Assembly: GCF_917627385.1 (NCBI RefSeq)
Contig: NZ_CAKJTL010000177.1
Span: 20,724-59,338, forward strand
From: Protofrankia sp. CiT1
GTDB lineage: Bacteria > Actinomycetota > Actinomycetes > Frankiales > Frankiaceae
DNA: 38,615 bases
Direction of reading: 5' to 3'
Shown: piece by piece, positions 25,074-38,051 of the stretch
Layout of the letters: each line of letters starts with the position of its first letter
Position numbering within the stretch: position 1 is the stretch's first letter
Notes under the pieces: model-generated
Databases searched by the model: none
What the model was told of the DNA's origin: nothing
What the model saw: the letters and a program-made list of their open reading frames with translations, nothing else
Translations under genes and position numbers: made by a program

Positions 25074-25280
25074 TTAGAGCGCTCCGGCAATAGGGGTGTG
25101 GATCAAGGAGCGGGGCTGGGGTGCATGCATCGCGAGGCGGCGGAGGCAGGCACCGGAGGTGTTGGGTGGCGACCGACGAGCCGGGGTACCCGTGCATCGC
25201 GCAGCGATGGACGGGGAGCGATGACGCGAGGTGCGCGCCCCAACCCGCGACACCGCTTCCCCTCTTGCCGGTCGCTCTAA
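25074..25280. mobile_element. MITE-like element, 207 bp (family II, copy 1)
   Basis: The ends are TTAGAGCGCTCCGGCAATAG (then GGG) and the complement of CCTCTTGCCGGTCGCTCTAA, forming imperfect inverted repeats of about 22 bp with TA at each tip. The centre carries GTGCATGCATCGCGAGGCGG and CGAGCCGGGGTACCCGTGCA, both found in the copies at 32.5 and 37.0 kb. It codes for nothing recognisable and lies 37 bp downstream of the SAF-protein gene. Confidence 0.78.
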
Positions 25281-31664: not shown

Positions 31665-32910
31665 ACAAGCCTCCCCATCGTCTGTCCCGCCATCCCCCCG
31701 ACGCGACAGCCTGGCACATAACCGGACGACCAGAAGTGACACCCACCGCCAAAGCTATAGAGTTAGTCAGACGTCGGACTCCGACGGAGTGGTCATAGCC
31801 ACATCTTTCTGGCGCGCATCTGGGCCAGTCAACACGGCATCGACCCTCAGCTGACAACCAGCAACAGTGAGCACACGTTCCACCCTTCCATCCGGCGGCG
31901 GTGCATTGGTTCGAGAGCCACTTGCTTCCGTCCTGGGAGGCTCGCTCCATCCCCGGCCGCCGTGTCCTGCCATCCCGTGCTGGTTGCGACGGAGCGCCAT
32001 GTCACAAACATGTTGCACGCGTGATGCGCGAAAATGCCACTACCGCCACCAAGCGCCGGAGCGGAGCGCCCCGGCCGCCCGCGCGGCGGGAGCACGGACG
32101 AGTGGCCTGCCGGCCGCGAGAGCGAAACCACCAACAACCGGATGGTGCTCGATCCGCTGCCTTCGGGCAACTCCAGCGCCCTGACGAAACCGGCCCGGCG
32201 GATCGCCGTCCGCCGCGGCGTGGCCCCACGTCGCACTGATCGTGATCGTGGACCGGTAACAACAGAAATATTGCCTGTGGCGACGGCTCGCGCGCCACAG
32301 TTGTCCACAAAAAATGACGCATTTATTACGGTTTGTAATATTTTCGACCATTTTTCGTTCGACGACACCGCCGCGCACCCATAGCTGCCGAGCCGCGGAT
32401 CACCCGCCGACAGCGCCAGCCAATACCACTGAAGGAATTTCTGGCACGCTGACGTAGATACCTCGAATTTTCGGCATCCAACCTCGGCTGAGAACACCCG
32501 ATAAGCGGGAAGACAGATCAAGAAAAAAGGTTGGGGTGCGTGCATCGCGAGGCGGCGCGGGGAGTCGCTGGATGTGGTGGGTGGCGACCGATGAGCCGGG
32601 GTACCCGGGCATCGCGCGGCGATGGACGAGAAGCGACCGATGGGGAGCAATGACGCGAGCTGGATGCTCCGCATCCCCTGTTGCCGGGCGCTCATACCCG
32701 ACAGGACTATCCGGCAGAGTCCTGTCGCGCCTCGACGGCATACCACGGACCCTTCGCCGACCTTTGTGATCATTATCACCACACACCACAAAGCCCCGGA
32801 AGGGGACCGCCGACGATCAATGGACAACCAGTCGGTCAAGATCGCCCATAAAGACCCCGGTATGCTCCGGTACAGATCAGTTGCGGACATCGCATCACGA
32901 GGAGTAGCGG
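31665..32910. other. 1.2-kb gap with AT-rich island and a decayed repeat element
   Basis: No protein of credible composition is found. About 32,255-32,350 is AT-rich (GACGCATTTATTACGG then TTTGTAATATTTTCGACC). A family II repeat copy lies at 32,500-32,694. The right end holds the promoter region and GAGGAG ribosome site for the beta-helix gene. Confidence 0.45.
32500..32694. mobile_element. MITE-like element, decayed left end (family II, copy 2)
   Basis: The core TGCATCGCGAGGCGGCG, then GGTGGCGACCGATGAGCC and GGGGTACCCGGGCATCGC, is the same as in the 25.1-kb copy. The right end CCCTGTTGCCGGGCGCTCA is intact except that the final TAA is changed. The left terminus (about 32,500) is hardly recognisable. 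Confidence 0.65.
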
Positions 32911-34500
32911 ATGGGACCTGCCTCAACGGACGGTCGCGCCCGCGACGGCTCTGACAACGACACCACCGCCAGGGGTGCTGGCGACAGCACTGGCACTGGC
33001 ACTGGCACTGGCACTGAAACCACTGTCATGCCCCGGCCCGTGAGAGACCGCCAAGGCTTCCACGCAATGATGACCGGGCGGCGCCGGCTGTGGCTACCGA
33101 TCGGTGGTGGGATCGCGGTTGTCGTCGTCATCCTTCTCCTCTTGTTCCTCCTGCTGGGCGGCGGAGGCGGTTCGTCGGCGCCTGTTGCCGGCGCAACCGG
33201 GCACACGCCCACCACAGGCTTGGGCCCCTCCGCCGGCACCCATGACCGCTGGGTGCTTGTCGCCGACGCACACCCGCTGGACGGGCAGTCCGTGCCGGCC
33301 GGTGTAGATGTTACTCTGAGTCCGGGAACGGACACTCTTGACAAGGTCGAACGGGTCAAGTTCTCGCTCGACGGCAACACGCTGCTCGACGACCGGGACG
33401 CGCCGTTCACACTCCACCTCGATGCCGTTGCGGCCGGAAAACACACGCTGACCGCCCGGGTCCGCACCAACAGCGACACCGTCGAGGTGACGGCCACCTT
33501 CACCGCCACCGGGGATGGATCGGCATCGGCCACCCCGTCCGCGGCCGCCGCGCCTGCCGCGGTGGTACCACCCGCCGTGCTGGCTGAAATACCAACCGCC
33601 CCAGCACCGCTGCGGACAGTAACGGTATCCACCGCCGATCAGCTGACCGCCGCGCTCGCGGCGGCCCAGCCAGGGGACCTCATCCAACTCGCGGACGGCC
33701 AGTACACAGGCCACTTCGTGGGCAACCGGGCAGCGAACGCGAAGGCTCCGATCACTGTGCGTGGCTCACGTAATGCGGTGATCGACGGCGGGTCGATCAG
33801 CGAAGGCTACGGTTTCCATCTCGACAAGGCCGACTACTGGCGGCTGGAGGGTTTCACCATCCAGAACGGCCAGAAGGGAGTGATGACCGACCAGACCCAC
33901 GGCGCGGTCATCACCGGCCTGCTCGTGCGCAACGTTGGCGACGAGGGCATCCACCTACGGAACTTCTCCACCGACAACTTCGTCGTCGGATGCACCGTGA
34001 ACGGTACCGGTCGCAAGGAGCGCGGGTTCGGCGAGGGCATCTATATCGGCACGGCGAAGTCGAACTGGGAGCGTTTCAGCGGCGGGAAGCCGGACAACTC
34101 CGACCGTAATCAGATCATCGGTAACACCATCAGCGGGATCACCGCCGAGGCCGTCGACATCAAGGAAGCCACAACCGGCGGGGTCCTGAGCAACAACACT
34201 TTCGACGGATCAACCATCACCGGGGCGAACTCCGCGGACTCCTGGGTGGACGTGAAAGGCAACAACTGGCGTATTGAGGGCAACATCGGCGTCAACAGCC
34301 CGAAGGATGGCATCCAGACTCATGTGATCATCGACGGCTGGGGTACGGGGAACATCATCACCGGAAACAAGCTGGATGTCCGCGGCCCCGGTTACGGAGT
34401 CAGCATCGACAAACCGAACAAGACCCAAAATATCGTCTCCTGCAGCAATACTGTCACCGCGGCGGCCAGCGGCCCGTTCAACGTAACCTGCTCGCGGTGA
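32911..34500 (+). CDS. Membrane-anchored right-handed parallel beta-helix protein
   Basis: The 529-aa protein has a cytoplasmic Gly/Thr-rich N-terminus, one transmembrane helix at about 61-82, a Gly/Ser linker, an Ig-like domain (about 110-195, ADAHPLDGQSVPAGVDVTLS, FSLDGNTLLDD, KHTLTARVRT) and a C-terminal parallel beta-helix (about 225-529). The helix shows repeated N/I/G coils (GFTIQNGQKGVMTD, GLLVRNVGDEGIHLR, NQIIGNTISGITAEAVDI, NIITGNKLDV) and the opening AAAQPGDLIQLADGQYTGHF of polysaccharide-lyase-like proteins. It probably binds or cleaves an extracellular polysaccharide. GAGGAG lies 7 bp before the ATG. Confidence 0.83.
   Translation: MGPASTDGRARDGSDNDTTARGAGDSTGTGTGTGTETTVMPRPVRDRQGFHAMMTGRRRLWLPIGGGIAVVVVILLLLFLLLGGGGGSSAPVAGATGHTPTTGLGPSAGTHDRWVLVADAHPLDGQSVPAGVDVTLSPGTDTLDKVERVKFSLDGNTLLDDRDAPFTLHLDAVAAGKHTLTARVRTNSDTVEVTATFTATGDGSASATPSAAAAPAAVVPPAVLAEIPTAPAPLRTVTVSTADQLTAALAAAQPGDLIQLADGQYTGHFVGNRAANAKAPITVRGSRNAVIDGGSISEGYGFHLDKADYWRLEGFTIQNGQKGVMTDQTHGAVITGLLVRNVGDEGIHLRNFSTDNFVVGCTVNGTGRKERGFGEGIYIGTAKSNWERFSGGKPDNSDRNQIIGNTISGITAEAVDIKEATTGGVLSNNTFDGSTITGANSADSWVDVKGNNWRIEGNIGVNSPKDGIQTHVIIDGWGTGNIITGNKLDVRGPGYGVSIDKPNKTQNIVSCSNTVTAAASGPFNVTCSR
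32988..33016. repeat. CACTGG hexamer repeat in the beta-helix gene
   Basis: Four consecutive CACTGG units and a partial fifth encode a Thr-Gly tract (TGTGTGTG) in the cytoplasmic tail of the beta-helix protein. Changes by whole units keep the frame. Confidence 0.75.
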
Positions 34501-34845: not shown

Positions 34846-36705
34846 TCAGGATCCGCTCTGTGACGCCCCGTGGAGCTCCAGTTTCTCGCTGGCAAGCAGC
34901 TCCTGTAGTTCACGCACTGCTTCCCGAAGGCAGTCGGCAAAGACGGTCATCTCGTCAGCTACCGAAAGCGGCGTGCTCAGATAGAGGTTGAAACTGTCAG
35001 GAAGCAGGACGTAAGCGATGCCGATACACCGGCTGCTCGTCGATCCGAAACCGAGGTACTGGACGTTCGCAGAGGGCACGGAGCTCGTACTCAGGTAATC
35101 GTCCCGCATCTTGAGCCAGCCTGGAGTTTCGTACAGAGCGAGCGGCTCGGTCACCCCCAGCTCCTCGCCGCGCCGTTTCTGAATAAGCTGCAGCTCCCAC
35201 AGGTGTTGCTCGGGCGCCTGCCCCGCCTGGCACTCCTTCGCGCGTTCCACATGCTTTTCGGCGGCCGCCCGAAACGCTGCCCTGCGGGCCGCCGCGGCCA
35301 TGTCTGGGTCATCCATCGTCGCTACGAACCGCATCACCTCGGGCGTGACAACGCGCATCGCCTCCGTACGCCCGTACTGGTACTGTCTCGTGGCGATCGA
35401 CTCGTAGGTGGTGCCCACCACTCCTTTGGCACGTTTGTGGGCCAGTTGAAAGGCCAGCTGTACGAACGCATCAGGTGACATCCGTAGCTCTTTGGCCCGG
35501 TTGGCACCGAAATCGCCGAACGACAGGATGGCTGTGGCGGTGTCGGCCCTATAGGCCGCGAACGACGCGGCGGCGGCCCGTACGTCGGCCCGCAGGTCGT
35601 CGTCCAGCACGAACTCAACAGGAACGACGCTCGGCACCCCCCGGGCCTCGGCCTCGGCGCCGGCCGCCAGACGCTCCTCGGCCGCCGCGCCCACAAGCGC
35701 GTCGACGAAATTGAGGACCGTAGTTCCGTCCAGGCTGCAATGCTCCACGTTGATACCTGCCGTACCGTCCTCAAAGACGATTAGTGATACGGCCTTGTCG
35801 AACCACCGATTACCGCTGTCACCGTGCAGCAGCTGGTCACACGCCATCAAGGGGTCCTTGGGTGCGAAGTCCTCCAGACACATGCAGAACAGCGCGCTCT
35901 CTATCGTCTCAAACACGTCCGCGTTGCCGGGATGACAGGCGAGCAATGCCTGTCGACTGGCTGCCCACTCGGCCCGAGCCTTGGTGGTGAGATGCCCGAC
36001 CGGCTCCTCCCACGCGGGCCGCGTCGCCGCGGCCTTTATGATTGTGTGCAGCCCCGCCACGAGATCGTCAAATATGTAGGGCCGGCCGTCCGGACCGATC
36101 ACGTCCAGGCGAAACATGTTGCCGCGGAAGAACACCATGATATGGCGCGCCCGCGACGGGCCCGGCCACTGTTCGCTGTAGGGCGCGCGGACGGCATCCT
36201 GTACAGGTCCAGGTATTCGCGTCGTGGAGAACAGAAACTTGTTCTGCTCCATCGAAAGCGGCTGCCCCCGCTGGACGATCGGCGCGATGAGCTCCTCGTC
36301 GAGCCGCATCTTGTAGTCGACAGCCGCGGCAATGAGCCCAGCCGCCCGGTCCACCTGCTGTTGGGGAGAAGCCTTGAACAAAAAAAAGAAGTTCGCGTTG
36401 AGGGCTATACGGTCGCGACGGCCCAGATACCGGGACGACCAGAATGTGTCGAGCCAGCTGTGCACGCCGTCGCTGGAGTTGTACTGCTCGAGTGCCGCGT
36501 GCAGCTTGTGGCCGGGACCGTCCGGTCGGCGGAAGGAGGCGGCCGCCGCCTCCGTAGCCGCCAGTTCGGCTGCGGTCAGCAGCGGCGCGCACCAGGCCAG
36601 AAATCTCTCGCAACTGGCATCTAACGTGGGCAGTGGTACTCGCGGCAGACGCTCTTCATTGCCAAAAGTTCGGGTGGACCACTCTTGACCGTTGTGCACA
36701 CTCAT
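34846..36705 (-). CDS. Choline/carnitine O-acyltransferase family protein
   Basis: These enzymes exchange acyl groups between CoA and the hydroxyl of carnitine or choline. The 619-aa protein is full length for the family. It opens with LPRVPLPTLDASCERFLAW (about 20-38). The catalytic His322 is in GINVEHCSLDG (318-327), preceded by the strand SLIVFEDG. TYESIATRQYQYGRTEAMR (433-451) and the STS motif at 539-541 (YLSTSSVPSANVQYLGFGS) form the substrate/CoA site. The family is common in eukaryotes and uncommon in bacteria. The ATG has GAGGTCGAGG directly upstream. A 2OG oxygenase gene lies upstream on the same strand. Confidence 0.9.
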   Translation of the reverse strand: MSVHNGQEWSTRTFGNEERLPRVPLPTLDASCERFLAWCAPLLTAAELAATEAAAASFRRPDGPGHKLHAALEQYNSSDGVHSWLDTFWSSRYLGRRDRIALNANFFFLFKASPQQQVDRAAGLIAAAVDYKMRLDEELIAPIVQRGQPLSMEQNKFLFSTTRIPGPVQDAVRAPYSEQWPGPSRARHIMVFFRGNMFRLDVIGPDGRPYIFDDLVAGLHTIIKAAATRPAWEEPVGHLTTKARAEWAASRQALLACHPGNADVFETIESALFCMCLEDFAPKDPLMACDQLLHGDSGNRWFDKAVSLIVFEDGTAGINVEHCSLDGTTVLNFVDALVGAAAEERLAAGAEAEARGVPSVVPVEFVLDDDLRADVRAAAASFAAYRADTATAILSFGDFGANRAKELRMSPDAFVQLAFQLAHKRAKGVVGTTYESIATRQYQYGRTEAMRVVTPEVMRFVATMDDPDMAAAARRAAFRAAAEKHVERAKECQAGQAPEQHLWELQLIQKRRGEELGVTEPLALYETPGWLKMRDDYLSTSSVPSANVQYLGFGSTSSRCIGIAYVLLPDSFNLYLSTPLSVADEMTVFADCLREAVRELQELLASEKLELHGASQSGS

Positions 36706-37181
36706 CCTCGACCTCGGTGATGTTGGGGGAGCTGGACGACTGCATGTTCGGTGCGATAGCTACAGCTTGCGTAAATTTTTCGTGTCGCATGGCCGAGAGA
36801 TGTAGAATTGCGCGTAGAGCCAGCCGTCGGCTTCCGGACCGGGCGGATTCACACCGATGGCCGACGGCCGTGTCCAGAACGAGCGCCTGCCCCTCCGGGG
36901 AGGCGAACCGCCGCTGTTTGAACACGCCTTCAAGGTGGACGCGGCGGATGCGGCCCGCCACCGACGCTTAAAAGGGGCCCGGCAATAAGACCGTCTGGCT
37001 CGCGCCGCCCAGGCGGCGCCTCGCATCGTCGCTCCCCATCCATCGCCGCGCGCGATGCACGGGTACCCCGGCTCGTCGGCCGACGCCCAACACAGGGCAC
37101 CTCCCCGCGCCTCCCCGCGCCGCCTCGCGATGCACGCACCCGAACCCCGCTCCCTGATCCACACTCCTGTTGCCGGGCGCT
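36706..37181. other. Spacer between oxygenase and acyltransferase genes
   Basis: The right part (36,968-37,185) is a family II element. The left 260 bp carry the acyltransferase ribosome site and promoter. Minus-strand frames here read RFASPEGQALVLDTAV and, after a shift, PEADGWLYAQFYIS, which could be decayed coding sequence, but I could not assign a family. Confidence 0.4.
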
Positions 37182-37185
37182 CTAA
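36968..37185. mobile_element. MITE-like element, 218 bp (family II, copy 3, inverted)
   Basis: In reverse orientation it reads TTAGAGCGCCCGGCAACAGG at the right tip and ends at the left with the complement of TTAAAAGGGGCCCGGCAATA. The shared core (GTGCGTGCATCGCGAGGCGG, GACGAGCCGGGGTACCCGTG) is present. Its right tip overlaps the last codon region of the oxygenase gene and supplies that gene's TAG stop. Confidence 0.78.
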
Positions 37186-38051
37186 TCCAGTAGCTGATCG
37201 ACCCGCACCGCGCGTCCCGCGGCCGCCAGGTGCTGAGGCAGTACCCGGCCGAAAAGCTGCCTGGTCCGTGCCACGCTGCCCACGACGCCGGAACGTTCGC
37301 TATACGCAAAGATCGCTGAATGACGAGCTGTCTCACCGCGCACGGAACTCACCCGATGCATCGAATAACGGCCCTTGAACAACTGAAGATCCCCTGGCCG
37401 CAACGAGAGGCTGCGGATCAGCTGCTCACCGCCGCCGGTCAGCACAGCTCGAACGTCAGCAAAATTTTCCGATTGTACGGACCTGATGTCCGGACAGTAC
37501 TCGAACACGCCACCGGCCTGCGGCTCCTGCGTGAGCAGGCTCACTGCGAACTCGTTTGTGTCGAAATGCCACGGGTGCTCCATTCCCGGCATAACGATGT
37601 TGAGACACAAGCCAGCCAAGGAGTCCGCAAGCTCGTAGAGACAGGACATGCCGAAACAGCTGGCAATAAAGTGCTGAAACAGCTCATTGGCATAGAGCTG
37701 ATGGATGATAAAATTCTCCGGGATTCGATCGCGTGCCACAAACGCATTGCCACGCCGCATCGTGACGCGCCCCGGATGATCTTCTGGTAGGGATGCGTCG
37801 GGCGTGATGTTGTAGGCGTTGACCGTTTCGACACCGTAATACGCCAGCGGAGCGATCGTAGCGCATTCCAGGCGTAGTTCATCACATCGGGAAGACCGAA
37901 TAAAGTTCGGCAGTACACTGCATCCAGAATTTTGGAGTTCGCTCCGGACCCGGGAGACCAAATATTCCCAGTCAGTACCCGTCGGCGCCGACAAAGGATA
38001 GCGGGCGGTGTCAACCAGCTGCCCGACCAGCCCAGCGTCTGATGTTCTCAC
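37182..38051 (-). CDS. Fe(II)/2-oxoglutarate-dependent oxygenase, ArpA/BesD-like
   Basis: The 289-aa protein (from GTG 38051, MRTSDAGLVGQLVDTARYPL) contains the facial triad His162-x-Asp164 (EHPWHFDTNEFAVSLLTQ) and distal His232 (KGRYSMHRVSSV), plus Arg243 for 2-oxoglutarate (ETARHSAIFAYS). GGVFEYCPDIRS and LRPGDLQLFKGRYS are characteristic of the ArpA/HalD/BesD group. The Asp of HxD is present, so hydroxylation is expected; BesD-type halogenases have Gly there. GGAGGGG precedes the chosen GTG; another GTG at 38066 would add 5 residues. The TAG stop lies inside the tip of a repeat element. The substrate is unknown, possibly an amino acid. Confidence 0.87.
   Translation of the reverse strand: MRTSDAGLVGQLVDTARYPLSAPTGTDWEYLVSRVRSELQNSGCSVLPNFIRSSRCDELRLECATIAPLAYYGVETVNAYNITPDASLPEDHPGRVTMRRGNAFVARDRIPENFIIHQLYANELFQHFIASCFGMSCLYELADSLAGLCLNIVMPGMEHPWHFDTNEFAVSLLTQEPQAGGVFEYCPDIRSVQSENFADVRAVLTGGGEQLIRSLSLRPGDLQLFKGRYSMHRVSSVRGETARHSAIFAYSERSGVVGSVARTRQLFGRVLPQHLAAAGRAVRVDQLLD

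Follow-up and report, generated by a model that had tools for sequence, protein, structure and literature searches.

Why is a choline/carnitine O-acyltransferase encoded beside an Fe(II)/2-oxoglutarate oxygenase in the genome of Protofrankia sp. CiT1, and could the two enzymes serve a carnitine-like pathway, as the initial annotation of this locus had proposed? The whole stretch of DNA that was analysed (38,615 nucleotides) is referred to here as the window. Its acyltransferase gene (CAT; 34846..36705, minus strand) is intact and encodes a protein of 619 amino acids, which was assigned by Pfam PF00755, by alignments and by a residue table of 103 homologues. The match to PF00755 scores 543.7 bits (cut-off 22.3, E 6.8e-163) and covers the profile from position 1 to 574 of 574. 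His322 and the motifs TYESIATRQ, GRTEAMR and LSTSS are present in the protein and conserved in the homologues. H322, Y434, T447 and T540 are invariant in all 103 homologue rows, S541 occurs in 102 of 102 oxygenase-linked rows, and S539 is found in every row except that of a second CAT copy located on contig C184 of the same genome. The annotation had described a full-length enzyme with these motifs from a family rare in bacteria, and both statements hold: by profile search PF00755 was found in none of 14 control genomes and in 5 of 396 Actinomycetota genomes. The convergent neighbour of CAT (32911-34500, plus strand) encodes a secreted beta-helix/NosD-like protein with a Big_7 domain, and it showed no conservation at this position in relatives.

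The oxygenase gene (OX; 37182..38051, minus strand, open frame to 38066) lies 476 bp upstream of CAT on the same strand. Its start was placed at an in-frame GTG at 38051, five codons into the listed ORF, which is favoured by the 289-amino-acid length of the relatives. OX was classified as a BesD/HalD/Hydrox-type enzyme by its Pfam match, its AF2 fold and its conserved triad. It matches the HalD family PF23169 with 47.2 bits (cut-off 26, E 2.5e-12), the sole profile at E <= 0.001, and the TauD-type PF02668, the domain of the trimethyllysine and butyrobetaine hydroxylases (TMLH and BBOX), is absent from its matches. The AF2 model has a pLDDT of 92.5, and its best PDB matches in a fold search are HalB, Hydrox, HalD and BesD (Z 20.8-21.6), the next family reaching 16.8. 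Thus, the earlier placement of this oxygenase in a subfamily distinct from TMLH and BBOX is upheld both by Pfam and by fold, and so is the upstream, same-strand position with an intact HxD...H site: the iron triad H167-x-D169...H237 is invariant in 101 of 101 OX rows. A halogenase role was considered and rejected, as halogenases carry HxG in place of HxD (Asp to Gly or Ala) whereas D169 is kept in all 101 rows. The complete HxD/H triad argues for OX acting as a hydroxylase.

In BesD, R77 and H137, together with W241, bind the substrate carboxylate, and D239, D143 and E123 hold the amino group of lysine (PMC13244439). From iron-ligand spacing and the alignment to Hydrox, R105 and H164 of OX stand at the spacing of R77 and H137, and E123 and D143 are replaced by L150 and T170, which are conserved in 98 and 97 of 101 rows; these substrate residues were assigned from fixed spacing and an alignment of low identity rather than from a solved complex. 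Since the carboxylate ligands appear to be kept but the equivalents of E123 and D143 are Leu and Thr, the substrate should be amino-acid-like with a non-cationic side chain. Lysine is an unlikely substrate because the cation-binding acids of BesD are not found in OX. Distant OX relatives with 29-42% identity also occur without CAT (L166:3195-8435, L167:6179-7852 and L168:6032-7874), and they look like neighbours of amino-acid-related genes, read by eye as an M24 peptidase, a C-N hydrolase and an aminotransferase at L166, a DDAH-like protein at L167 and amino-acid ABC transport at L168.

Co-occurrence of the two families within 5 kb was the check that had been suggested for the pair, and the result was clear-cut. 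With thresholds of at least 460 bits for strong OX and at least 507 bits for CAT of the Gln type (described below), both genes were found in 39 of 394 class-wide genomes and both were absent from the other 355. In all 39, OX lies upstream of CAT on the same strand at a distance of 232-1567 bp. Fisher's test gives p of about 1e-54 for the co-occurrence, a value that ignores phylogeny, and 30 of the 39 genomes are Frankiaceae; within this family, the five genomes lacking OX are the same five that lack CAT. A scan of 84,980 GTDB species genomes yielded 404 loci encoding CAT relatives, and OX is adjacent to CAT in all of the best 80 of these 404. The functional link between OX and CAT is thus close to certain. 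It should be noted here that co-occurrence shows a shared pathway and not that CAT acylates the product of OX.

The operon was previously taken as a gene pair, and here the initial annotation has to be corrected, as a third gene had been missed. A methyltransferase gene (MT) lies between OX and CAT in 71 of 83 inspected loci (one inspected locus without OX, L048, came from a separate search and not from the GTDB scan). When 18 loci of relatives were searched by tblastn with OX, MT and CAT, all three were found everywhere, in the order OX-MT-CAT and on one strand. MT of the linked type is present in 37 of the 39 cassette genomes and in none of the 355 others; weaker MT paralogues occur also in genomes without the cassette. 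MT and CAT are fused in a single open frame in three relatives of the same genus as well as in Gandjariella and a Streptomyces, and in one of the same-genus fusions only a six-residue linker separates the aligned parts. About 13% of loci have no MT in the cassette, and 9 of 10 such genomes have an MT-like paralogue elsewhere. In addition, unlinked MT paralogues with a DLCCSYG motif (35-43% identity; L143-L153) were seen in Streptomyces and Salinispora, and their context gave no consistent partner genes.

In the window MT is a pseudogene. Its remnant (36706..36941, minus strand), recognised by similarity to an intact MT of the same genome, comprises the last ~75 codons, is frameshifted over two frames (MT profile matches at G000:C176:57501-57669) and at the DNA level is 76% identical to the 3' end of its intact counterpart; the 5' three quarters are gone. 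In place of the 5' part there is a GC-rich repeat (36976..37183, minus strand) of about 200 bp, of which the genome holds about 40 copies, 75-85% identical, with others elsewhere in the window (25074-25239 and 32529-32642). MT of the window has been destroyed by a deletion together with a repeat element that replaced most of the gene, as read from the sequence. The suggestion that the repeat had split an older operon was therefore right as to the disruption, which is real, and wrong as to its extent, as the element took the place of most of a gene and does not simply separate two genes.

The window genome (5.02 Mb, 191 contigs) encodes one OX on the window contig C176, one intact MT on C184, and two intact CATs, one on each of these contigs. 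The C184 locus (L002, G000:C184:14236-18948) has the intact MT directly ahead of the second CAT, has no OX, and its STS motif reads NTS. The intact MT is a class I SAM methyltransferase of 294 amino acids with a conserved motif I, DIGCSYG. Its AF2 model has a pLDDT of 86 and matches class I methyltransferases with Z 12-14, many types being tied, so that the fold search does not separate N-, C- and O-methyltransferases as to the accepting atom. Its Pfam matches fall below cut-off, and a PDB sequence search gave no useful match. With dN/dS ratios of about 0.12-0.22, OX and the two CATs of this genome are under purifying selection and thus maintained. In the CAT tree the two copies sit on long separate branches of about 0.23 each, and a recent duplication with reciprocal loss was rejected on account of this deep divergence. 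An ancient duplication and a transfer are both possible origins, and OX may have been absent from the C184 locus from the start. Methylation in the window cassette presumably depends on the intact MT of C184, acting in trans.

Beyond the three genes, comparison of neighbours revealed no conserved flanking gene across genera. A larger gene cluster was rejected, as the flanks vary by genus. The Nocardia cassette is flanked by metH/HAD on one side and by hisE-hisG on the other; an NRPS-like look of these neighbours was likewise dismissed, the genes being read by eye as metH, a Ser/Thr kinase, an HAD phosphatase, hisE and hisG. The CAT tree mixes families and Frankiaceae are not monophyletic in it, several of the deep forks being weak; because of this mixing, the tree suggests that the cassette has been transferred horizontally as a unit. 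A plasmid was searched for and none was found. Many soil actinobacteria carry the cassette. It was seen in most of the Frankiaceae examined, plant symbionts among them, and it also occurs in Nocardia, Actinomadura, Salinispora and Streptomyces. That OX and CAT are mere neighbours by chance or by hitch-hiking, with no common pathway, would agree with the variable gene content around the cassette. This reading is extremely improbable and is effectively refuted by the co-occurrence in 39 of 39 genomes without a singleton in the 355 others, by the fixed order and orientation, by the MT-CAT fusions and by a family-mixing tree of the kind expected for transfer as a unit.

The reading that we consider probable is that OX, MT and CAT form a stand-alone actinomycete cassette by which a small, non-cationic, amino-acid-like substrate is hydroxylated, methylated and acylated. 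OX would hydroxylate a small amino-acid-like substrate with a non-cationic side chain, MT would methylate the intermediate or the product by N-methylation or carboxyl O-methylation, and CAT would acylate the hydroxyl made by OX, with acyl-CoA as the donor and probably with a short acyl group. In the window genome the destroyed linked MT would be replaced in trans by that of C184. Residues of the CAT acceptor site bear on the identity of the substrate. Gln500 aligns with the Arg of the DRHL motif that is present in both CrAT and CPT2; in CrAT this Arg pairs with the carnitine carboxylate. Gln is found at this position in 102 of 102 OX-linked CATs, the C184 copy being counted among them, and the CATs from loci without MT carry it as well. 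The only two OX-less CATs inspected (L048 and L172, in G193 and G653), which are actinobacterial and from another genus, keep the Arg; they are possibly true bacterial carnitine acyltransferases. Because the carboxylate Arg is replaced by Gln in every OX-linked CAT, carnitine and butyrobetaine are poor candidates as compounds of the cassette. The acyl-gating position is Phe in OX-linked CATs, Met in CrAT and Gly in the long-chain enzyme CPT2, and by analogy the Phe would favour a short acyl group. Among the OX-linked CATs, that of the window alone has Leu here (L551), the 101 others all having F, and it may be drifting.

Three other readings of the same residues have to be weighed against this one. 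The cassette could make true carnitine or acylcarnitine by a non-canonical route, with OX acting on GABA or butyrobetaine, MT performing N-trimethylation and CAT acetylation; all three chemistries needed are present, and CAT keeps Tyr434, Ser436 and Thr447 as well as Phe553 of the trimethylammonium site. This is nevertheless very unlikely in view of the invariant Gln, of the Arg retained in the OX-less CATs, and of OX belonging to the BesD group and not to that of TMLH and BBOX. A loss of the carboxylate Arg is also known from choline acetyltransferase, which has Asn in that place. CAT could accordingly resemble this enzyme and accept a carboxylate-free, choline-like amino alcohol, the quaternary ammonium being formed by MT, with which the retained Phe would agree. 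On the other hand, Thr447 of the carboxylate-binding trio, a Thr that choline acetyltransferase has lost, is kept in CAT, and OX retains the carboxylate-type ligands R105 and H164, which makes such an acceptor quite unlikely. A special form of the preferred explanation, in which MT is a carboxyl O-methyltransferase, the methyl ester of a hydroxy amino acid fits Gln500 and CAT acylates its hydroxyl, would account jointly for the invariant Gln in place of Arg and for the MT-CAT fusions. We regard it as an unlikely variant, as Gln is also found in the CATs of MT-less loci, and the fold search is equally compatible with N-, C- and O-methyltransferases.

Likeness to the carnitine pathway, as initially proposed, thus extends to the logic of hydroxyl, methyl and acyl groups alone, as carnitine and butyrobetaine are disfavoured by Gln500 and lysine by the OX site. 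The product of the cassette is very probably a small acylated metabolite, related to acylcarnitine but probably not acylcarnitine itself. Going further, it could tentatively be suggested that OX-MT-CAT is an unrecognised mobile actinomycete pathway to hydroxy-amino-acid metabolites of a new class, O-acylated and methylated, which would be acylcarnitine analogues with another headgroup; for this joint reading the chances are somewhat short of even. No publication describing the cassette was found in a search of the open literature. Acyltransferases of the carnitine family hardly occur in bacteria, so a conserved branch that has an oxygenase and a methyltransferase of its own suggests an undescribed small metabolite, and such a metabolite is indicated for several hundred actinomycete genomes. 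With only two or three genes in the cassette, the product could be found quickly by heterologous expression and metabolomics. The change from Arg to Gln also offers a handle on acceptor specificity in a medically interesting enzyme family.

Among known systems, the use of PF00755 in specialised metabolism has a precedent in the carnitine-acyltransferase (cAT) release domains of fungal HR-PKSs, from which the cassette differs in that CAT is free-standing or MT-fused and a PKS is not consistently nearby. With the halogenases BesD, HalA, HalB and HalD and the lysine hydroxylase Hydrox, OX is grouped in one Fe/2OG subfamily, both by its Pfam match and by its fold (Z about 21), and apparently has in common the ligands of the amino-acid carboxylate; it differs in having HxD against the HxG of the halogenases, in Leu and Thr in place of the ammonium-binding acids, and in an identity of 15-18%. 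Carnitine biosynthesis by TMLH and BBOX followed by an acyltransferase follows a like logic of Fe/2OG hydroxylation, N-methylation and O-acylation, but the OX of the cassette is of another subfamily, its CAT is without the carnitine Arg, and an aldolase or dehydrogenase is not consistently linked to it. To CrAT, CPT2 and choline acetyltransferase the cassette enzyme is alike in its full-length PF00755 family membership, its catalytic His and its TYES, GRT and STS motifs; OX-linked CATs differ from CrAT and CPT2 in carrying Gln for the carnitine-carboxylate Arg, in being bacterial, and in sharing an operon with oxygenase and methyltransferase genes.
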